From the NCBI RefSeq assembly GCF_900102545.1, contig NZ_FNBN01000005.1, positions 372,001-436,000 of the forward strand: a stretch of 64,000 nt of DNA. Reading direction: 5' to 3'. The position numbers were made by a program, and so were the translations under genes. Below, piece after piece: positions 46,369 through 55,163 of this stretch. This stretch comes from Chitinophaga filiformis. GTDB lineage: Bacteria; Bacteroidota; Bacteroidia; Chitinophagales; Chitinophagaceae. Within the stretch, counting starts at the first letter, position 1, and each line of letters begins with the position of its first letter. Under the pieces are notes generated by a model, which ran no database searches, was not told where the DNA came from, and saw only the letters and a program-made list of their open reading frames with translations.

Positions 46369-46402
46369 TTTGACCGCGAAAAAAAATAATAGTATAACTT
46401 TG
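46369..46402 (+). promoter_or_regulatory. Promoter of the arginine operon
   Basis: TTTG (46369-46372), 22 nt, TAACTTTG (46395-46402). The spacing is one or two nt longer than ideal. It implies an untranslated leader of about 280 nt before the first structural gene, which holds the leader ORF and hairpins described separately. Confidence 0.6.
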
Positions 46403-46452
46403 CGTTTGATTTTATTAAAGACAGTTTTTAACAATTTAATGCTGAACTGAAG

Positions 46453-46566
46453 TTGGAAAACTTTGCGGCCCATAACCTTTCTGCATATCATCCTTCTCTG
46501 ATGGAAGGAGAGTACTCTATTGGGTTCAATGTCTTTAGATATCTTTCCCGACGACCTCGTATTTGA
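46453..46566 (+). CDS. Putative Arg-rich leader peptide of the arginine operon
   Basis: The short ORF from TTG 46453 (37 codons) or ATG 46501 (21 codons) ends FRYLSRRPRI then TGA. Four of the last nine codons are Arg (AGA, CGA, CGA, CGT), two adjacent and both CGA. The stop overlaps a hairpin. No good ribosome site precedes either start. Its position between the promoter and the arginine genes is what one expects of an attenuation leader. It could still be a chance ORF. Confidence 0.4.
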   Translation: MENFAAHNLSAYHPSLMEGEYSIGFNVFRYLSRRPRI

Positions 46567-46640
46567 TAGCGTCCGCTTACATAATGCACGCTATCGCAAC
46601 ACCGTGATTTTTCTCTCAGTCACATAACAAAGGTGTTTTT
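46565..46640 (+). promoter_or_regulatory. Tandem hairpins in the arginine-operon leader (candidate attenuator)
   Basis: The first hairpin is GATAGCGT (46565-46572) with ACGCTATC (46588-46595), a perfect 8-bp stem starting inside the leader stop codon. The second is a composite: AACACC (46598-46603) with GGTGTT (46632-46637), enclosing GTGA/TCAC, and followed by TTT. It resembles a weak terminator 50 nt before the GNAT gene. Confidence 0.45.
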
Positions 46641-46690
46641 CATCCAGCAATGGATTCCAGATTATTAATTTTATTGATTTACGTTTTCAA

Positions 46691-47515
46691 TTGACAAAAT
46701 TGGAAAATCCAAATATCATTGTCAGGGTTGCTACCGCTGACGATAAGCATTATGGCAAAACCATCACTGACGAGATGGAAGCTTCCGCCAAAGCACGTGG
46801 TACAGGTATTGCCAAACGTTCTCCCGAGTATGTTCAACTTAAGATGGAGGAAGGTAAAGCCGTTATAGCACTCACAGATAAAGGCGAATGGGTAGGTTTT
46901 TGCTATATAGAAGCCTGGGGACATGAAAAATTTGTGGCCAACTCGGGGCTTATCGTGAATCCCGCCTTCAGGGGACATGGTGTGGCCAAGGCTATCAAGC
47001 ACCGTGTGTTCGAACTGTCAAGGCAGAAATATCCTGACGCTAAAATATTTGGTCTGACTACAGGGCTTGCTGTAATGAAGATCAACTCGGAGCTGGGTTA
47101 CGAACCGGTAACTTATTCAGAGCTGACAGACGATGAGGAGTTCTGGAAAGGATGCCGCAGTTGTGTGAACTTTGACGTGTTGACGAGCAAGAACCGTAAG
47201 AACTGTCTCTGTACCGCTATGCTGTACGATCCTGTTGAGAAAGCAAAAGAGGAGGCTGAGAAGAAGGAAGAGATGAAAAAGGCGATCCTGAGTATCAGAA
47301 CAGAGACAGATGCACAGCCTCATCCGCAGGTACTGGTGGCAGCCAACGGTGAGATGAAGCACAAGAAAGCCAGGAAGTTCAAAGAGAATTTCAAACTGTT
47401 CGAAAGATGGCTGCGCTTCAAAAGACACGTGCTGCTGAAAGGTGGGAAGGAAGGTGTCAGTGGAGGCAGTGCACCAGCCAACAAGAAGAGATTCTTCCTG
47501 TTCAACTTATTTTAA
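46691..47515 (+). CDS. GNAT acetyltransferase, putative N-acetylglutamate synthase
   Basis: 274 residues from TTG 46691, with a second in-frame TTG at 46700. The N-terminal GNAT domain (about 5-165) shows IIVRVATADDKHY, VALTDKGEWVGFCYIEAW-like strands and the acetyl-CoA loop NPAFRGHGVAKAIKHRVFEL (R-G-x-G-x-A). Residues 190-274 are a basic, Lys/Glu-rich tail with a probable helix. It is the first structural gene of the arginine operon. No argA or argJ is present in the cluster, so it most likely supplies the N-acylation of glutamate; that role is context-based. Acetyl versus succinyl donor is open. Confidence 0.8.
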   Translation: MTKLENPNIIVRVATADDKHYGKTITDEMEASAKARGTGIAKRSPEYVQLKMEEGKAVIALTDKGEWVGFCYIEAWGHEKFVANSGLIVNPAFRGHGVAKAIKHRVFELSRQKYPDAKIFGLTTGLAVMKINSELGYEPVTYSELTDDEEFWKGCRSCVNFDVLTSKNRKNCLCTAMLYDPVEKAKEEAEKKEEMKKAILSIRTETDAQPHPQVLVAANGEMKHKKARKFKENFKLFERWLRFKRHVLLKGGKEGVSGGSAPANKKRFFLFNLF

Positions 47516-47583: not shown

Positions 47584-48783
47584 ATGAAAAAAGTCGTACT
47601 TGGATTTAGCGGAGGCCTTGATACTTCCTATTGCGTAAAATACCTGACAGAAGAAAAAGGGTATGAAGTGCATTCAGTTATCATCAATACCGGTGGCTTT
47701 TCAACGGAAGAGCTGCAGGAGATTGAAAAGCGTGCATATAGCCTGGGAGTGAAGAGTCATAAAACGGTAGATGCAGTACGTTCTTATTATGATAGTGCTA
47801 TCAAATACCTGGTATTTGGTAATGTGTTGAAGAATAACACCTATCCGTTGAGCGTAAGTGCGGAGCGTGTTACACAGGCGCTGGTAATTGCCCAGCATGT
47901 GAAGGAACTGGGCGCTGATGCAGTAGCGCACGGTAGTACCGGTGCTGGTAACGACCAGGTGCGTTTCGATATGATCTTCCATATCATGATCCCCGGTGTT
48001 GAGATCATCACACCGATCCGTGATATGAAACTGAGCCGTGAAGAGGAGATTGCCTACCTGAAAGGTAAGGGCGTACAGATGAACTTCGAGAAAGCAGCTT
48101 ATTCTATTAATAAAGGCATCTGGGGTACTTCCGTAGGTGGTAAGGAAACACTGACATCAGACGGGTTCCTGCCTGAAGAAGCATGGCCTACCCAGTTGTC
48201 AAAACAGGGTACTGAAAAAGTATCTCTGCAGTTTGTGAAAGGTGAATTGACCGGCGTGAACGGTAAGACCTTCGGTCATCCGTCAGAAGCTATCCAGCAC
48301 CTGCAGGAACTGGCTGGTCCGTATGCTATCGGCCGCGATATCCACGTAGGAGATACGATTATCGGTATCAAAGGCCGTGTTGGTTTTGAAGCCGCTGCAC
48401 CTGTGATCATCATCAAAGCACACCATGCACTGGAAAAACATGTATTGACCAAATGGCAGCTGAGCTGGAAAGACCAGTTGTCACAGTTCTACGGTAACTG
48501 GTTGCACGAAGGACAGGTAATGGACCCTGTAATGCGCGACATAGAAGCCTTCCTGCAGCACAGCCAGGAGCATGTAACAGGTGAAGTATATGTTACCCTG
48601 CAGCCTTACCGCTTCCAGGTAACAGGTATCAAATCTGAATATGACCTGATGAGCAGCAAGTTTGGTAAATACGGTGAAATGAACAGTGGCTGGACTGGCG
48701 AAGATGTGAGAGGTTTCAGCAAAATATTCGGTAACCAGACAATGATCTGGCATCAGATTGCAGAAAGTGTCAAGGACAAATAG
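47584..48783 (+). CDS. argG: Argininosuccinate synthase
   Basis: 399-residue cytosolic ATP-dependent ligase joining citrulline and aspartate. The PP-loop GFSGGLDTSYCVKYL binds ATP. AHGSTGAGNDQVRFDMIF and the ITPIRDMKLSREEEIAYLKG segment are conserved, as is the YSINKGIWGTSVGGKETLTS region. Length is normal. It is the second gene of the operon, followed by argC 23 nt later. Confidence 0.96.
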   Translation: MKKVVLGFSGGLDTSYCVKYLTEEKGYEVHSVIINTGGFSTEELQEIEKRAYSLGVKSHKTVDAVRSYYDSAIKYLVFGNVLKNNTYPLSVSAERVTQALVIAQHVKELGADAVAHGSTGAGNDQVRFDMIFHIMIPGVEIITPIRDMKLSREEEIAYLKGKGVQMNFEKAAYSINKGIWGTSVGGKETLTSDGFLPEEAWPTQLSKQGTEKVSLQFVKGELTGVNGKTFGHPSEAIQHLQELAGPYAIGRDIHVGDTIIGIKGRVGFEAAAPVIIIKAHHALEKHVLTKWQLSWKDQLSQFYGNWLHEGQVMDPVMRDIEAFLQHSQEHVTGEVYVTLQPYRFQVTGIKSEYDLMSSKFGKYGEMNSGWTGEDVRGFSKIFGNQTMIWHQIAESVKDK

Positions 48784-48806
48784 CCGGAGGCGCAAAACAC
48801 AAGAAA

Positions 48807-49790
48807 ATGGCAAACGACAAGAAAATAAAGGCAGGGATTATTGGTGGAGCAGGATATGGCGGCGGTGAAATGATCCGTCTTTTATTGAATCATCCCAACG
48901 TAGAGATCTCTTATGTAAATAGCCGGAGTAATGCCGGCAATCCCCTGTACGCAGTACATGCCGACCTGCTGGGGGAAACTGAGCTCACTTTCACGGGTGA
49001 AGTCAGCAGCGATATAGATGTATTGTTCCTGTGTCTCGGACATGGAGAAGCAAAGAAATTCCTGGAAGAAACGGAGCTTGCTCCAGCTGTAAAAGTGATT
49101 GATCTCAGCCAGGACTTCAGGCTGGGGGAGACAGTGAAGGGAAGGGAGTTCGTATACGGACTGCCTGAAATGCAGCGGGAAAAGATCGTTACTGCCAATA
49201 ATATTGCCAACCCGGGTTGTTTTGCAACTGGTATCCAGTTAGGATTGTTGCCATTGGCCAAAGCGGGTTTGCTGCAGGAAGTACATACCACCGGTATCAC
49301 AGGATCCACCGGTGCAGGACAGAGTTTACAGGCTACCTCACATTTCACATGGAGGGCCAACAACATCTCCACTTACAAAGTACTGACCCATCAGCATTTA
49401 AAAGAAATCCGACGAAGCTTACAGCTGTTGCAGCCCTCCTTTGCCGGAGACGTGAACTTCGTACCGGTGCGTGGGGATTTTCCAAGAGGTATCTGGGTAA
49501 CCTCTTACCTGCAGAGCGATTTGTCGCTTGAAGAAGCGCAGCAGCTGTATAAAGCCTACTACGCAGGACATCCGTTTACACATGTAAGTGATAAACAGAT
49601 AGACCTGAAGCAGATCGTGAACACCAACAAATGCCTGATCCAGCTGGAAAAGGTAGGGAACAAACTGGTGATCCACTCTATAGAGGACAATCTGCTGAAA
49701 GGTGCGTCAGGACAAGCGGTACAGAACATGAACCTCCTGTTCGGACTGGATGAAACTGCGGGATTAAGGCTGAAGTCTATTGTGTTTTAA
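48807..49790 (+). CDS. argC: N-acetyl-gamma-glutamyl-phosphate reductase
   Basis: 327 residues. The NADP-binding Rossmann motif is GIIGGAGYGGGEMIRLLLNH. The catalytic Cys is in NIANPGCFATGIQLGLLPL, and TGITGSTGAGQS plus RGDFPRGIWVTSYL complete the active site. It reduces acyl-glutamyl phosphate to the semialdehyde in the third committed step of arginine synthesis. It starts 23 nt after argG. Confidence 0.96.
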   Translation: MANDKKIKAGIIGGAGYGGGEMIRLLLNHPNVEISYVNSRSNAGNPLYAVHADLLGETELTFTGEVSSDIDVLFLCLGHGEAKKFLEETELAPAVKVIDLSQDFRLGETVKGREFVYGLPEMQREKIVTANNIANPGCFATGIQLGLLPLAKAGLLQEVHTTGITGSTGAGQSLQATSHFTWRANNISTYKVLTHQHLKEIRRSLQLLQPSFAGDVNFVPVRGDFPRGIWVTSYLQSDLSLEEAQQLYKAYYAGHPFTHVSDKQIDLKQIVNTNKCLIQLEKVGNKLVIHSIEDNLLKGASGQAVQNMNLLFGLDETAGLRLKSIVF

Positions 49791-49855
49791 ACTATGCCCA
49801 AGCTGGTGCCAATTTTAACAATCTCCCGTATCAAGCGGGAACAATCTGAGCTACG

Positions 49856-50986
49856 ATGCAATTATTTGACGTATATCCCATTAATGATATCACTATAGAG
49901 AAAGCTGCGGGTTCCAATGTATGGGATGCGCAGGGCAATAAATATCTTGACCTGTATGGCGGTCATGCGGTAATTTCTATTGGTCATACACATCCTCACT
50001 ACGTACAACGCTTAACAGATCAGTTACAGAAAGTAGGATTCTACTCCAACTCCATCAAAATACCATTGCAGCAGCAGCTGGCAGAGAAACTGGGTAAGAT
50101 TTCCGGTAAGGAAGATTACCAGCTGTTCCTCTGTAACTCAGGCGCTGAGGCCAATGAGAATGCGCTGAAACTGGCGTCTTTCCACAACGGCAAGAAGAAG
50201 ATCATCGCATTTAAAAAGTCCTTCCACGGAAGAACTTCACTGGCTGTTGCAGCTACCGACAATCCGAAGATTGTAGCACCGGTGAATGAAACAGACAACG
50301 TGGTATTCCTGCCCTGGCAGGATGAGGCAGCCCTGGAAGCAGCCTTTAAACAATATGAAGTATCTTCTGTTATCATCGAAGGTATTCAGGGCGTAGGCGG
50401 TATCCAGGTAGCAAGTGAGTCATTCCTGAAAAAGATCAGAAGTCTTTGTGATGCACACAATGCCGTGTTTATTGCTGATAGCGTGCAGTGTGGTTATGGC
50501 AGAAGCGGTAAATTCTACTCTCACGATTTTGCCGGTGTGAATGCAGACATTTACACGATGGCAAAAGGAATGGGTAATGGTTTCCCTATCGGTGGTATCA
50601 TCATTGCTCCGCATATCAAACCTTCCTATGGTTTGCTGGGTACCACCTTCGGTGGTAATCACCTGGCTTGTGCAGCTGCACTGGCAGTACTGGAAGTGAT
50701 AGAAAGGGACAACCTGATCGCCAATGCTGCGAAAGTAGGCGGTTACCTGATTGAACAACTGAAAGCATTCCCGCAGGTAAAAGAAGTAAGAGGAAGAGGA
50801 TTGATGATCGGTATTGAGCTTCCGGATTCATTGGCTCATGTGAGGAAGGAACTGTTGTTCAAACACAGGATCTTTACAGGTGAAGCAAAACCGAACGTAA
50901 TAAGACTGCTGCCTTCCCTGGCACTGACCATGGAACACGCAGATCAGTTCCTGACTGCATTCAAACAGGAAGTAGAGAAAAACTAA
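49856..50986 (+). CDS. argD: Acyl-ornithine aminotransferase
   Basis: 376-residue class III PLP aminotransferase that makes N-acyl-ornithine from the semialdehyde. Features are NKYLDLYGGHAVISIGH, LFLCNSGAEANENALKLA, FKKSFHGRTSLAVAATDN, the PLP-binding Lys in TMAKGMGNGFPIGG, and TTFGGNHLACAAALAV. Acetyl or succinyl substrate is not resolved. It is 65 nt after argC. Confidence 0.95.
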   Translation: MQLFDVYPINDITIEKAAGSNVWDAQGNKYLDLYGGHAVISIGHTHPHYVQRLTDQLQKVGFYSNSIKIPLQQQLAEKLGKISGKEDYQLFLCNSGAEANENALKLASFHNGKKKIIAFKKSFHGRTSLAVAATDNPKIVAPVNETDNVVFLPWQDEAALEAAFKQYEVSSVIIEGIQGVGGIQVASESFLKKIRSLCDAHNAVFIADSVQCGYGRSGKFYSHDFAGVNADIYTMAKGMGNGFPIGGIIIAPHIKPSYGLLGTTFGGNHLACAAALAVLEVIERDNLIANAAKVGGYLIEQLKAFPQVKEVRGRGLMIGIELPDSLAHVRKELLFKHRIFTGEAKPNVIRLLPSLALTMEHADQFLTAFKQEVEKN

Positions 50987-51015
50987 ATAGTCATCATTAC
51001 AGAGCCATACATAAA

Positions 51016-51966
51016 ATGAAACAATTTATTTCCGTAGATGATGTGCCAAGTGTCCCGCGGTTAGTGGAGATAGCACTGGAGTACAAAAAACAGCCTTTCA
51101 AAGACAGGGCATTAGGACAGAACAAGACGCTGGGAATGATATTTCTGAACCCCAGTCTGCGAACACGATTGAGTACGCAGGTGGCGGCAAAGAATCTCGG
51201 AATGGAAGTAGTGGTATTTAACATCGATAAGGAAGGCTGGCAGCTGGAAATGAATGATGGCGCTATAATGAACGGAAATACTTCGGAGCACGTGAAAGAA
51301 GCTGCTGCTGTAATGGGGCAGTACTTCGACATCATGGCGATCCGTACTTTTCCGGGACTGAAAGATAAAGAGTCTGATTATAAGGAGAAATATATCAATC
51401 AGTTTATCAAATACGCAGGGGTACCTGTATTGAGCCTGGAAAGCGCGACCCTGCATCCTTTGCAGAGTTTAACAGACGTGATCACCATTAAGGAGCAATG
51501 GCAACAGCCACGCAGACCGAAAGTGGTAATGACCTGGGCGCCGCATGTAAAACCGCTGCCACAGGCTGTTCCCAACTCCTTCGCACAATGGGTTAATGCC
51601 TGGGGTGAAGCAGATTTCGTGATCACACATCCGGAAGGGTATGAACTGGATCCGAAATTCACCGGTAGTGCGCAGATTGAATACAACCAGGACAAAGCCC
51701 TGGAAGGTGCAGATTTTGTGTATGTAAAGAACTGGTCTTCTTATAAAGATTATGGCAAGATTACCTGTACAGACAGCAACTGGATGGTGACCAACGACAA
51801 ACTGAAGGGAACCAACCAGGCGAAAGTGATGCACTGTTTACCGGTAAGAAGGAATGTGGTAATTGCTGATGAAGTGCTGGACGGACCTAATTCCATCGTG
51901 ATCCCTGAAGCCGCAAACCGTGTATGGGCGGCACAGGCGGTATTAAGCCAGATCTTAAAAGGTTAA
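51016..51966 (+). CDS. argF': N-acyl-L-ornithine carbamoyltransferase (AOTCase/SOTCase family)
   Basis: 316 residues. The carbamoyl-phosphate site is FLNPSLRTRLSTQ (Leu in place of the Thr of STRTR-type ornithine enzymes), with SLESATLHPLQSLTDVI, VVMTWAPHVKPLPQAV, and the C-terminal MHCLPVRRNVVIADEVLD. These match the Bacteroidota succinyl/acetyl-ornithine carbamoyltransferases, not ArgF. In that family one position of the MNGxxxEH loop decides specificity: Pro90 in the succinyl enzyme, Glu92 in the Xanthomonas acetyl enzyme. Here the equivalent residue is Ser90 (MNGNTSEH), so substrate cannot be assigned by rule. Position in the operon fits carbamoylation before deacylation by ArgE. Confidence 0.92.
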   Translation: MKQFISVDDVPSVPRLVEIALEYKKQPFKDRALGQNKTLGMIFLNPSLRTRLSTQVAAKNLGMEVVVFNIDKEGWQLEMNDGAIMNGNTSEHVKEAAAVMGQYFDIMAIRTFPGLKDKESDYKEKYINQFIKYAGVPVLSLESATLHPLQSLTDVITIKEQWQQPRRPKVVMTWAPHVKPLPQAVPNSFAQWVNAWGEADFVITHPEGYELDPKFTGSAQIEYNQDKALEGADFVYVKNWSSYKDYGKITCTDSNWMVTNDKLKGTNQAKVMHCLPVRRNVVIADEVLDGPNSIVIPEAANRVWAAQAVLSQILKG

Positions 51967-51971
51967 TTTGT

Positions 51972-52760
51972 ATGATCGATCTCTTTGTAATAAAAGTCGG
52001 CGGTAACGTCATCGATAATCCGAAGTTGCTGGAAGAATTCCTCAGGAATTTTGCAGCAATCAAGGGAAAGAAAATACTGATCCATGGGGGTGGCAAAATT
52101 GCCACCCGCATTGGAGACAAGCTGGGTATTGAGTCAAAATATGTCAACGGCCGCCGTATCACTGATGCGGAGACGATTGACGTAGTGACAATGGTATACG
52201 GTGGATTAGTGAATAAGCAGCTGGTGGCTAAATTACAGGCCAATGGCTGTAATGCGATCGGTATGACAGGCGCTGATGCCAATATCATTCCGGCTGTTAA
52301 ACGTCCGGTGAAAGAGATCGATTATGGATTTGTAGGAGATATCAACACGGCAGATGTACAGGGAGCTTCCCTGAAGGCATTGCTGGAAGCTGAGCTGGTA
52401 CCGGTATTTGCGCCGCTTACACATGATGGTAATGGACAGATGCTGAACACCAATGCTGATACTATCGCTTCATCACTGGCAATAGCTTTGTCGAAGTTTT
52501 ACAACGTAAGACTGATCTATTGTTTCGAGAAGAAAGGTGTGCTGCATAGCCCTGATGATGATAATTCTGTTATTACCCTGATAGACCGTATGATCTATGA
52601 GGAACTGAAGGCTGATAACGTGCTGACAGACGGTATCCTGCCTAAACTGGAAAATGCTTTCGCAGCTATAGAAAGTGGTGTGGCGGAAGTACTGATTGGT
52701 CATGCTGATGACGTACAGAGCAACACCACAGATACAGTAGCGGGTACTTTAATACGCTAA
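51972..52760 (+). CDS. argB: Acetylglutamate kinase
   Basis: 262 residues from ATG 51972; the frame is open upstream into argF' but this Met begins the family N-terminus (MIDLFVIKVGGNVI). It has the amino-acid-kinase glycine motifs IKVGGN and ILIHGGGKIATRIG, then GMTGADANIIP and NTNADTIASSLAIAL. It phosphorylates N-acyl-glutamate. The start lies 5 nt after the argF' stop, suggesting coupling. No N-terminal Arg-sensing helix is visible, so feedback inhibition by arginine is uncertain. Confidence 0.94.
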   Translation: MIDLFVIKVGGNVIDNPKLLEEFLRNFAAIKGKKILIHGGGKIATRIGDKLGIESKYVNGRRITDAETIDVVTMVYGGLVNKQLVAKLQANGCNAIGMTGADANIIPAVKRPVKEIDYGFVGDINTADVQGASLKALLEAELVPVFAPLTHDGNGQMLNTNADTIASSLAIALSKFYNVRLIYCFEKKGVLHSPDDDNSVITLIDRMIYEELKADNVLTDGILPKLENAFAAIESGVAEVLIGHADDVQSNTTDTVAGTLIR

Positions 52761-52764
52761 ACCT

Positions 52765-53829
52765 ATGTGGAACCAACAGCTGTATGATGATGCAGTAACT
52801 TTGTTAAAAGGGCTGATCTCCATCCCTTCCCTGAGCAGGGAGGAACAGGGGACTGCCCAATTGATCGCTGATTTTCTGAGAGAGCGGAATATTCCTTATC
52901 AGCAACACCTGAATAATATCTGGGCAAAAAATAAACATTTTGACCCTGCAAAGCCCGTCATTGTTTTTAATTCTCACCACGATACGGTAAAACCTAATCC
53001 GCAATACACACGCGACCCTTTTTCTCCCGACGTCGAAGATGGCAAATTGTTCGGCCTTGGCAGTAATGACGCAGGCGGTTGCCTGGTCAGTCTTATCGCT
53101 ACCTTTCTGCATTTCTATGATCGTAGCGATATGGCTTACAACATCATTCTTACTGCCACGGCAGAAGAAGAGATCAGTGGTGTAAATGGTATTGAAAGCA
53201 TCCTTTCACAATTACCGGCGATTGATTTTGCCATCGTAGGAGAGCCTACGCAAACACAACTGGCCACTGCTGAAAAAGGCCTGATGGTACTGGATTGTAC
53301 CGTGTATGGCAAAGCAGGACATGCGGCACGTGATGAGGGAGAGAATGCGCTGTACAAGGCGTTGCCGGATATAGAGTGGTTCAGGACTTACCGCTTTCCT
53401 AAAGTGTCTGATACATTAGGCCCCGTGAAGATGAGCGTAACAGTGATCAACACCTCCAACAAAGCACATAACGTGGTACCGGCAGATTGTACCTTTGTGG
53501 TGGATGTGCGCGTAACAGAACAGTATACGCTGGAAGAAGTGCTGGACATCATCCGTGCAAATGTGAAATGTGAAGTGAAGCCACGTTCCCTGCGTATGCG
53601 TCCTTCAGGTATTCCGATAGACCATCCTTTTGTACAGGGTGGCTTACGTCATGGCAAGACGACTTATGGCTCGCCCACCACATCAGATCAGGCGCTGATA
53701 CCGGCAACTTCCATCAAGATGGGACCTGGCGATTCTGCCCGTTCGCATACTGCGGATGAATACATTTACCTGGATGAGATCCGTCAGGGTATTGATAGTT
53801 ACATTAAATTACTGGAAGAAATCTTGTAG
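52765..53829 (+). CDS. argE: Acyl-ornithine/acyl-citrulline deacylase (M20 family)
   Basis: 354-residue zinc amidohydrolase of the M20 family. Metal motifs are FNSHHDTVKPNP, LGSNDAGGCLVS and ATAEEEISGVNG (catalytic Glu-Glu), with PTSDQALIPATSIKMGPG near the end. In this operon it follows an N-acyl-ornithine carbamoyltransferase, so its natural substrate should be N-acyl-citrulline rather than acetylornithine (inference from pathway order). It starts 4 nt after argB. Confidence 0.93.
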   Translation: MWNQQLYDDAVTLLKGLISIPSLSREEQGTAQLIADFLRERNIPYQQHLNNIWAKNKHFDPAKPVIVFNSHHDTVKPNPQYTRDPFSPDVEDGKLFGLGSNDAGGCLVSLIATFLHFYDRSDMAYNIILTATAEEEISGVNGIESILSQLPAIDFAIVGEPTQTQLATAEKGLMVLDCTVYGKAGHAARDEGENALYKALPDIEWFRTYRFPKVSDTLGPVKMSVTVINTSNKAHNVVPADCTFVVDVRVTEQYTLEEVLDIIRANVKCEVKPRSLRMRPSGIPIDHPFVQGGLRHGKTTYGSPTTSDQALIPATSIKMGPGDSARSHTADEYIYLDEIRQGIDSYIKLLEEIL

Positions 53830-53831
53830 AT

Positions 53832-55163
53832 ATGAAAATCTGGCAAAAGGATAAAGCTGCGCTGGCAGAAGTGGACAAGTTCACCGTCGGTAAAGACCGT
53901 GAAATGGACGCTTATCTGGCGCCCTTCGATGTGCTGGGATCACTGGCACATACGGCCATGCTGGAGAGCATCGGGCTGTTGACAGCAGATGAACTGACCA
54001 TCCTGCAAAAGGAATTAAAACAGATATACAAAGAGATACAGGAGGGCAATTTTACACTGGAAGATGGGGTGGAAGACATCCATTCACAGGTAGAATTAAT
54101 ACTAACCCGCAGACTGGGAGAAGTAGGCAAGAAGATCCACAGCGGCCGTTCCCGTAACGACCAGGTGCTGGTAGACCTGAAGCTGTTCCTCCGTCATGAG
54201 CTGGAAGTATTGGTAGGAGAGGTAAAGATCTTATTCGATCTGCTGCAACAGAAAAGTATTCAATACAAAGATCATCTCATACCTGGTTACACCCACCTGC
54301 AGATAGCGATGCCATCTTCTTTCGGATTATGGTTTGGCGCTTATGCGGAAAGTCTGGTAGATGACCTGACTGTGTTACAGGGCGCTTATAAAGTAGTGAA
54401 TAAAAACCCATTGGGTTCTGCTGCCGGATATGGTTCTTCTTTCCCCCTGAATCGTACTATGACCACACAGTTACTGGGTTTTGATGACCTGAACTATAAT
54501 GTGGTGTATGCACAGATGGGGCGTGGAAAAACAGAAAAGATCGTTGCCTTTGCACTGGCAGGCATTGCTTCTACGGTGGCGAAGATGGCCATGGACGCTT
54601 GTCTGTTCATGAACCAGAACTTTGGTTTTATCAGTTTCCCTGATGAACTGACCACGGGCTCCAGCATCATGCCTCACAAGAAGAATCCTGATGTATGGGA
54701 ACTGATCCGCTCACATGGCAACAAACTGCAGGCATTACCGAATGAGATCACCATGATGATCACAAACCTGCCAAGTGGTTATCACCGTGACCTGCAGCTG
54801 CTGAAGGAGAACCTGTTCCCTGCATTTGGCGTGCTGAAAGATTGCCTGCGGATGGCTGGATTAATGCTGGAGAATATCCGCATTAAAGAGAACATACTCG
54901 ATGATGAGAAATACCGCTACCTGTTCAGCGTTGAAGTGGTGAACAAGCTTGTACTGGAAGGGGTGCCTTTCCGTGAAGCATATAAGCAGGTAGGATTGGA
55001 TATCGAGAAAGGTAATTTTGCACCCGAGCAAACCGTGCAACATACACATGAAGGAAGTATCGGTAATCCGGGTAATGAAGAAGTGAACAGGATGATGGAA
55101 GAAGTGATCAAAGGATTTCCTTTCGGGAAAGTGGCAGCAGCGGTGGAGAAGTTGTTAAGTTAA
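53832..55163 (+). CDS. argH: Argininosuccinate lyase
   Basis: 443-residue fumarase/aspartase-superfamily lyase producing arginine and fumarate. Conserved regions are EDIHSQVELILTRRLG, SGRSRNDQVLVDLKLFLR, IPGYTHLQIAMPSSFGLWFG and the signature GSSIMPHKKNPDVWELIRSH. It is the last gene, 2 nt after argE, and ends at a very strong terminator. The cluster thus encodes every step from acyl-glutamate onward. Confidence 0.96.
   Translation: MKIWQKDKAALAEVDKFTVGKDREMDAYLAPFDVLGSLAHTAMLESIGLLTADELTILQKELKQIYKEIQEGNFTLEDGVEDIHSQVELILTRRLGEVGKKIHSGRSRNDQVLVDLKLFLRHELEVLVGEVKILFDLLQQKSIQYKDHLIPGYTHLQIAMPSSFGLWFGAYAESLVDDLTVLQGAYKVVNKNPLGSAAGYGSSFPLNRTMTTQLLGFDDLNYNVVYAQMGRGKTEKIVAFALAGIASTVAKMAMDACLFMNQNFGFISFPDELTTGSSIMPHKKNPDVWELIRSHGNKLQALPNEITMMITNLPSGYHRDLQLLKENLFPAFGVLKDCLRMAGLMLENIRIKENILDDEKYRYLFSVEVVNKLVLEGVPFREAYKQVGLDIEKGNFAPEQTVQHTHEGSIGNPGNEEVNRMMEEVIKGFPFGKVAAAVEKLLS

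Follow-up and report, generated by a model that had tools for sequence, protein, structure and literature searches.

An arginine-codon leader peptide ahead of the arginine operon of Chitinophaga: a probable ribosome-read switch without a conserved terminator

How arginine synthesis is controlled in Bacteroidota that carry no ArgR is not described in the open-access literature that we searched, and the question is raised by the arginine operon of a Chitinophaga genome of 8.6 Mb (G000), from which a stretch of 64,000 nucleotides (the window) was analyzed in this study. No match to the ArgR C-domain (PF02863) was found in G000, and among 98 family genomes the domain was matched in one, at a borderline score (E 8e-5, G004). 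Across 198 sampled Bacteroidota genomes, 83 carry the GNAT gene that heads the operon in the window, 72 carry the ArgR C-domain, 44 carry neither, and the two occur together in one (G004); this near-exclusion counts few independent events because the split follows family lines. The region upstream of the operon offers a possible answer. Judging from its sequence, it is very likely that a tiny gene ending in Arg codons serves as a gauge by which the ribosome senses the arginine supply, and it is probable that this ribosome-read gauge allows expression upon starvation through competing RNA folds.

The arginine genes downstream of the GNAT gene span 47584..55163 on the forward strand (Table 1). 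When duplicates are counted, 166 of the loci reach 2.5 kb, and 162 of these also encode ArgG or ArgC; of the four loci with neither, L190 is not a GNAT locus. The GNAT gene has no confident NCBIfam name. Since ArgJ was not found in G000, the GNAT protein may be an N-acylglutamate synthase. A relative with 57% identity is located at G000:C13:14292-14894.

Table 1. Positions of the leader elements, candidate pairings and genes of the arginine operon in the window
Feature	Position	Strand	Basis
Promoter-like elements, TTTG (46369-46372) and TAACTTTG (46395-46402)	46369..46402	+	sequence
TTTAAT with ATTGGA (GNAT start), candidate long-range pairing	46435-46440 with 46699-46704	+	helix scan
Leader peptide ORF, TTG start, 37 aa, MENFAAHNLSAYHPSLMEGEYSIGFNVFRYLSRRPRI	46453..46566	+	kept in 77/77 genus relatives
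GGAAA with TTTTC, candidate long-range pairing	46455-46459 with 46684-46688	+	helix scan
Control codons CGA CGA CCT CGT (Arg at -5, -4 and -2 from the stop)	46549..46560	+	genus conservation
H1, stop-codon hairpin, 8 bp (GATAGCGT/ACGCTATC)	46565..46595	+	-12.2 kcal/mol; covariation in genus
H2, hairpin (AACACCGTGA..TCAC..GGTGTT) with T-run (46636-46640)	46598..46640	+	weak, -6.2 to -8.8 kcal/mol; core pairs covary
H3, small hairpin ATCC..GGAT	46642..46655	+	-4.6 kcal/mol; similar small hairpins by eye in genus rows
Local hairpin between TTTTCAATT and the GNAT start region AATTGGAAA	46684..46706	+	local fold -5.7 kcal/mol; putative function
GNAT acyltransferase, first gene of the operon	46700..47515	+	PF00583 match; TTG start inferred from relatives
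argG	47584	+	ORF; NCBIfam
argC	48807	+	ORF; Pfam family and operon context
argD	49856	+	ORF; Pfam family and operon context
argF' (N-acylornithine carbamoyltransferase)	51016	+	ORF; NCBIfam
argB	~51972	+	ORF; Pfam family and operon context
M20 deacylase (argE-like)	52765	+	ORF; Pfam family and operon context
argH	53832	+	ORF; Pfam family and operon context

The promoters of Bacteroidota follow the consensus TTTG/TAnnTTTG. A TTTG followed by TAACTTTG is present upstream of the operon, and a TATAACTTTG-like stretch stands at the promoter position in genus leaders, among the leaders listed. Based on this sequence, the transcript is expected to start near 46408. The resulting leader of about 290 nt is composed of a short ORF, H1, H2 with its short T-run, the small H3 and an AU-rich stretch reaching up to the GNAT start, and the stability of its whole fold is unremarkable (z -1.44). 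The initial annotation had read these elements as a possible ribosome-mediated attenuator, and every sequence part that it listed is in place: the promoter-like elements, a stop-to-stop frame (46432-46566) ending in FRYLSRRPRI with the Arg codons AGA (46537-46539), CGA (46549), CGA (46552) and CGT (46558), a perfect 8-bp hairpin over the stop of that frame, and a weak terminator-like fold downstream. In our analysis of the sequence, the sensing half of that reading is well supported and the intrinsic-terminator half is weakly supported at most.

Three sets of leaders were compared. The genus set contains 77 distinct leaders, the row of the window itself having been removed as a duplicate and standing outside the 77. 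The second set contains 69 further leaders, mostly from other Chitinophagaceae and some from neighbouring families, and the third contains 63 leaders from other families, whose loci were drawn from the 83 GNAT-positive genomes of the phylum sample. The 68 other leaders used in the counts that depend on the stop codon exclude L102, which is too short, and L114, in which no stop was found.

The weak point of the leader ORF had been the lack of a good start. A TTG equivalent to that at 46453 is present in 77/77 genus leaders, giving an ORF of 37 or 38 codons, and its context, TTGGAAAA, is the same as that around the inferred TTG start of the GNAT gene (46700). In other Chitinophagaceae, ATG or GTG stands at the aligned place, the codons being readable in L024, L028 and L100. 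These findings remove the difficulty. The ORF ends at TGA 46564-46566, and the next codon in frame is TAG.

The Arg codons before this stop are nearly invariant in the genus. Codon -5 is CGA in 77/77 leaders, codon -4 is CGA in 76 and AGA in the remaining one, and codon -2 encodes Arg in all 77 through five synonyms (CGT, CGC, CGG, AGA and AGG). CGA is a rare codon in genes: in ten genes of the window it accounts for 5 of the 129 codons for Arg, versus 153 of 231 in the leader tails. When the other leaders are included, Arg occupies position -4 in 134/145 (77/77 in the genus and 57/68 of the others); nine of the 11 exceptions have Arg at -5, and the single Arg in the tail of L028 is located at -4. 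The tail is unique in G000 when up to three mismatches are allowed.

The substitution pattern also points to a translated reading frame. Among 56 distinct sequences, the leader frame gave a pN/pS of 0.41 and the two alternative frames gave 1.02 and 1.92, and the median dN/dS was 0.29 over 1521 usable pairs. Within the last ten codons, pN/pS was 0.28 and synonymous change was lower than elsewhere (pS 0.25 versus 0.48); the Arg tail is therefore constrained as a peptide and also as a nucleotide sequence. Outside these codons pN/pS was 0.42, a selection on the rest of the peptide that is not required by plain codon counting. The frame and the Arg codons, on whose conservation the initial annotation had made its reading depend, are thus both kept. 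We conclude that the short ORF is a real conserved leader gene, and the selection on its frame suggests that it is translated.

Selection on the whole peptide leaves room for readings in which the peptide itself, rather than the decoding of its Arg codons, is what matters. The fungal arginine attenuator peptide is the model for direct sensing of arginine by a nascent chain, and a peptide of that kind in the ribosomal tunnel would sense free arginine and stall at high arginine. Such an arrest peptide would be in keeping with the purifying selection and with a core, THT..AFH...GVYS.GF.VF, that recurs in many Chitinophagaceae. However, the N-terminal part differs in other lineages while the Arg tail stays, and leaders with one or two Arg residues in the tail exist (L028 and L024), and we consider this mechanism improbable. 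The same selection could reflect a small functional protein of 37-38 aa that is co-transcribed with the operon and has no regulatory role in it, and in other systems a leader peptide is able to act in trans, as stated for peTrpL in the available part of PMC7298713. Yet across families the peptides have little in common beyond the Arg cluster before the stop, conservation extends to the nucleotides near the stop and the hairpin, and the peptide matched no Pfam family at E <= 0.001, which makes a protein of this kind very improbable.

To describe the spread of such leaders, an ORF was counted when it had at least three Arg codons among its last eight and when its stop lay 30-170 nt ahead of the GNAT start. 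ORFs of this description were found in 77/77 genus leaders (shuffle mean 2.35, reverse complement 5), in 60/69 further leaders (shuffle mean 2.35, reverse complement 14) and in 35/63 leaders from other families (shuffle mean 4.1, reverse complement 6), and no residue other than Arg shows an excess of this size before the leader stop. The high reverse-complement count of 14/69 arises partly because CGACGACG reads as Arg codons on the opposite strand too, and the shuffles are the cleaner control. By family, the phylum sample gave 6/6 for f8, 14/14 for f22, 7/13 for f5, 3/5 for f3, 3/4 for f2 and 2/8 for f23. In 28 of the 63 leaders of this sample no such ORF was found, and all 13 loci from f4, f9, f10, f21, f24, f26, f28, f36 and f38 are among them. 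Families with other leader folds have different peptides in which the Arg theme is repeated, such as those ending in IPRRR or RRRP, and the layout of Arg codons before the stop thus persists across families whose RNA folds differ. Among the f5 leaders (e.g., L217, L222, L224, L225, L228 and L240), several have the Arg codons and the stop inside a tiny hairpin-like element, CGCCC-GTAA-GGG, and close to the gene there is a hairpin with a conserved loop around AGGTGAGTCC and a stem that varies.

The second conserved element is H1, whose 5' arm sits on the TGA stop of the leader. A stem of at least 7 bp at the stop is present in 73/77 genus leaders versus 17 when the downstream part is scrambled, and in 53/68 other leaders versus 10; the conservation of this stem, which the initial annotation had proposed to examine, is also borne out by compensatory changes. 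In an alignment of 75 distinct genus rows (A2), the core pairs of H1 and H2 are standard in 86.6% of cells compared with 18-49% in slid versions, and both the number of double-changed cells and the covariation score of these cores lie above all 500 shuffles. Two further counts in A2 are unremarkable: 66 of the 500 shuffles reach the number of pairs with double changes, and 95 reach the number of extra pair types. Two A-U pairs of H1 are lost in seven genus sequences (L068, L074, L087, L141, L145, L150 and L168). In a scan of the genus leaders for helices, H1 ranked sixth by covariation (0.20). When it was tested against shuffles, it lay above all 300, and it exceeded the slid versions on cells paired, with one slid version exceeding it in double changes (9 versus 8).

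A second alignment (A1) was made of 43 of the 68 other leaders, chosen by the H1 5' arm pattern TGA(C/T)AGG (45 rows) with L005 and L006 then removed; the constancy of that arm in A1 is therefore partly due to the choice. The lower stem of H1 is complete in every row of A1, with a compensatory C-G/U-A pair, and the upper stem covaries (G-C/A-U). RNAalifold, in which pseudoknots are not modelled, gave only the lower stem of H1 on this alignment. An ACGA internal loop inside H1 (A1 columns 11-14; AGGACGAGC..GCCCCT) is well conserved, which suggests a contact, either tertiary or with a protein.

The order of the parts, with a peptide rich in Arg codons, a hairpin at its stop and a second hairpin followed by a T-run, fits a transcription attenuator of the classical trp/his type. 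In such an attenuator, H2 with its U5 would be the terminator and H1 a pause hairpin, and a stalled ribosome would favour an antiterminator. The fold in question (CACC..GGTG followed by TTTTT) is present in the window, and its core pairs covary. We examined the leaders with a lenient search for hairpins that run into a U-rich stretch, which recovered the terminator of the upstream gene as a positive control (-17.6 kcal/mol, TTTTT). Terminator-like folds were found in 33/77 genus leaders versus a single-base shuffle mean of 10.1 and a maximum of 13, an enrichment that is expected with the conserved H2. However, the remaining 44/77 genus leaders are without such a fold, and in the other leaders it occurs at the chance level (11/68 versus a shuffle mean of 7.8). 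In addition, nine f5 leaders have only 58-74 nt between the leader stop and the gene, and no strong hairpin with a U-run was seen in these nine; nor did any antiterminator helix against H2 stand out in the helix scan of the genus. The terminator-like fold noted in the initial annotation therefore exists as a weak structure of the window and does not hold as a conserved intrinsic terminator.

A comparison with the his operon of G000 is informative in this respect. Upstream of hisG (L258, minus strand 2269-2216; contig C2 of G000), a leader encodes the peptide MSINVHTHHHHHFLPRR, followed by a hairpin of -19.0 kcal/mol, whose end lies 75 nt past the first base of the stop codon, and then by TTTTT. 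By its sequence this is a classical his attenuator, and therefore the organism has leader-peptide attenuators as far as the sequence can tell. By the same standard, the arg leader is a poor example of the class. For part of the genus, an intrinsic terminator formed by H2 and U5 is a possibility; elsewhere it has no support, and we regard classical attenuation as a rather unlikely account of the arg leader.

If termination is not the general outcome, other pairings of the leader RNA need to be considered. In A1, pairing is possible between the loop of H1 (ACCA) and a TGGT element (GGTGA) farther downstream, the pairs being standard in 76% of cells. Double changes occur in 4/6 of these pairs, a number reached by 16/500 shuffles, and the covariation score lies above all shuffles and slides. 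This helix also came first in a helix scan of 29 leaders, partly because these leaders were picked by eye for the TGGT element.

In the genus, the scan suggested two pairings between the leader start and the gene start. TTTAAT/ATTGGA is standard in 99.4% of cells and GGAAA/TTTTC in 91.2%, and both have double changes above 300 shuffles and slid versions. The leader-start/gene-start pairing is partly contained in the minimum-energy fold of the window leader. Because the starts of the leader and of the gene share TTGGAAAA, the two pairings are not independent evidence, and since the shuffles also ignore relatedness, the pairing is to be taken as a lead only. By covariation, the genus scan was headed by a hairpin local to the ORF (0.35), followed by GGAAA/TTTTC (0.24), a pairing internal to the ORF (0.23), TTTAAT/ATTGGA (0.21) and a helix between the leader start and the ORF (0.20, equal to H1). 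The top candidate was rejected, as its double changes were reached by 32/300 shuffles and are not above chance. Column-wise mutual information on the genus alignment was set aside because the signal of relatedness dominates it. In the genus rows, inspection by eye also showed a putative local hairpin that joins TTTTCAATT to the GNAT start. In f22 leaders, an early segment is complementary to the RNA after the stop, with a perfect match of at least 7 bases in 13/14 versus 2.3 expected from shuffles; examples of these early segments are TAGAATTGA, TAGGATC and TAACATTGTTCG (L226, L229, L230, L232, L235 and L238).

The structured RNA after the stop, the conserved ACGA internal loop and the covarying loop pairing in other Chitinophagaceae might also be taken to indicate a metabolite riboswitch or a protein-binding leader, in which the ORF would be incidental. 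In the window leader and 16 loci, however, Rfam models (T-box included) gave sub-threshold matches only, none above chance. The selection within the reading frame and the specificity for Arg also speak against an incidental ORF, as does the fact that the RNA folds vary between families while the Arg codons remain. We consider it highly unlikely that the leader is read in this way.

From the ORF, its start codon, its Arg codons and H1, which with their conservation can be read in the sequence, we infer the stalling, its sign and its output for the preferred reading, a ribosome-read arginine gauge. The operon would be transcribed with its leader of about 290 nt, and a ribosome would start at TTG 46453 and read the 37-aa peptide. 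The leading edge of a ribosome lies about 15-16 nt downstream of the first base of the P site, so that with the Arg codon -5 or -4 in the A site this edge would come close to the beginning of the stop codon. When Arg-tRNA is short, the ribosome would stall on the tandem CGA codons at -5/-4 with its leading edge at about the base of H1, and H1 could form. When Arg-tRNA is ample, the ribosome would reach the stop and cover the 5' arm of H1, and the downstream RNA would fold otherwise during the critical time. By this geometry, the formation of H1 would depend on the position of the ribosome; that position would choose the RNA fold, the fold would set the expression of the operon, and starvation would mean expression. 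The course from arginine shortage through stalling and H1 to expression is proposed because it matches the logic of the Salmonella speF leader, as given in the available part of PMC6386406.

In preference to intrinsic termination, the output would be gated translation of GNAT, access for Rho or decay of the mRNA, and its form may differ between lineages. In many other Chitinophagaceae, the loop and 3' arm of H1 could instead pair with the GGTGA element before the gene. In the genus, the leader-start/gene-start pairing would hide the GNAT start codon, and stalled or queued ribosomes would open it, while in the window's own clade the weak fold of H2 and U5 could add termination.

For the phylum, we offer a wider version tentatively, and hold its prospects to be somewhat short of even. 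In GNAT-led Bacteroidota without ArgR, arginine synthesis may stand under a terminator-free leader-peptide switch, in which a stall at -5/-4 lets H1 form and keeps downstream or leader-start RNA off the region before the gene, gating translation or Rho. If true, such a switch would answer how Bacteroidota without ArgR control arginine synthesis. Because ArgR and the GNAT-led operon almost never occur together, it can be tested as the replacement of one control system by another. The absence of a conserved terminator from the arg leader, in a genome whose his leader is a classical attenuator as judged by sequence, makes the output step a tractable question.

Leader-peptide control sensed by the ribosome is a textbook idea. 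The arg leader shares with trp/his-type attenuators an ORF that carries codons for the end product before a biosynthetic operon (77/77 in the genus, with Arg only). It seems to act like a leader-peptide attenuator, yet it misses one feature that defines the trp/his type, a conserved intrinsic terminator, whereas the his leader of G000 has its hairpin of -19.0 kcal/mol followed by U5. ArgR and T-box-Arg control respond to the same signal at the same operon; here, no ArgR C-domain match was found in G000 and no T-box match in the leader. The Bacteroid-trp RNA stands before trp genes. This RNA (RF01692) is described as a cis-regulatory RNA candidate of Bacteroidetes in the available part of PMC2864571; the arg leader is likewise such a candidate from Bacteroidetes, and it gave no Rfam match.

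Clues to leader-peptide attenuation ahead of amino-acid operons have been presented for Flavobacterium psychrophilum (PMC9723704), a member of the same phylum, and no arginine leader is named in the part of that paper available to us. We found no arginine leader in Bacteroidota in the open-access literature searched, with partial prior notice possible in PMC9723704, and none of this kind stands in the available portions of PMC8632094, PMC6429828, PMC2864571 and PMC4833913. Leader-peptide control of arginine in Bacteroidota without a conserved terminator thus appears to be new.

The closest counterpart is the speF leader of Salmonella (orf34/SpeFL). According to the accessible text of PMC6386406, its ORF of 34 aa senses arginine by ribosome pausing at consecutive rare Arg codons; a hairpin after the stop can form when the ribosome is kept at two Arg codons, and a ribosome at the stop prevents it. 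Its controlling Arg codons are codons 12-13, and changing an Arg near the stop leaves the arginine response unaffected. The two leaders differ in that speF concerns polyamine synthesis and the present one an arginine operon of Bacteroidota, in the placement of the Arg codons (12-13 versus -5/-4 here), and in the peptide, which belongs to DUF2618 in speF, whereas the arg leader peptide has no Pfam match. They resemble each other in having a short ORF, tandem Arg codons, here CGA CGA at -5/-4, and a hairpin downstream of the stop, here H1. In the same portion of that paper, the speF leader has no intrinsic terminator and acts through Rho, access to the RBS and RNase G.
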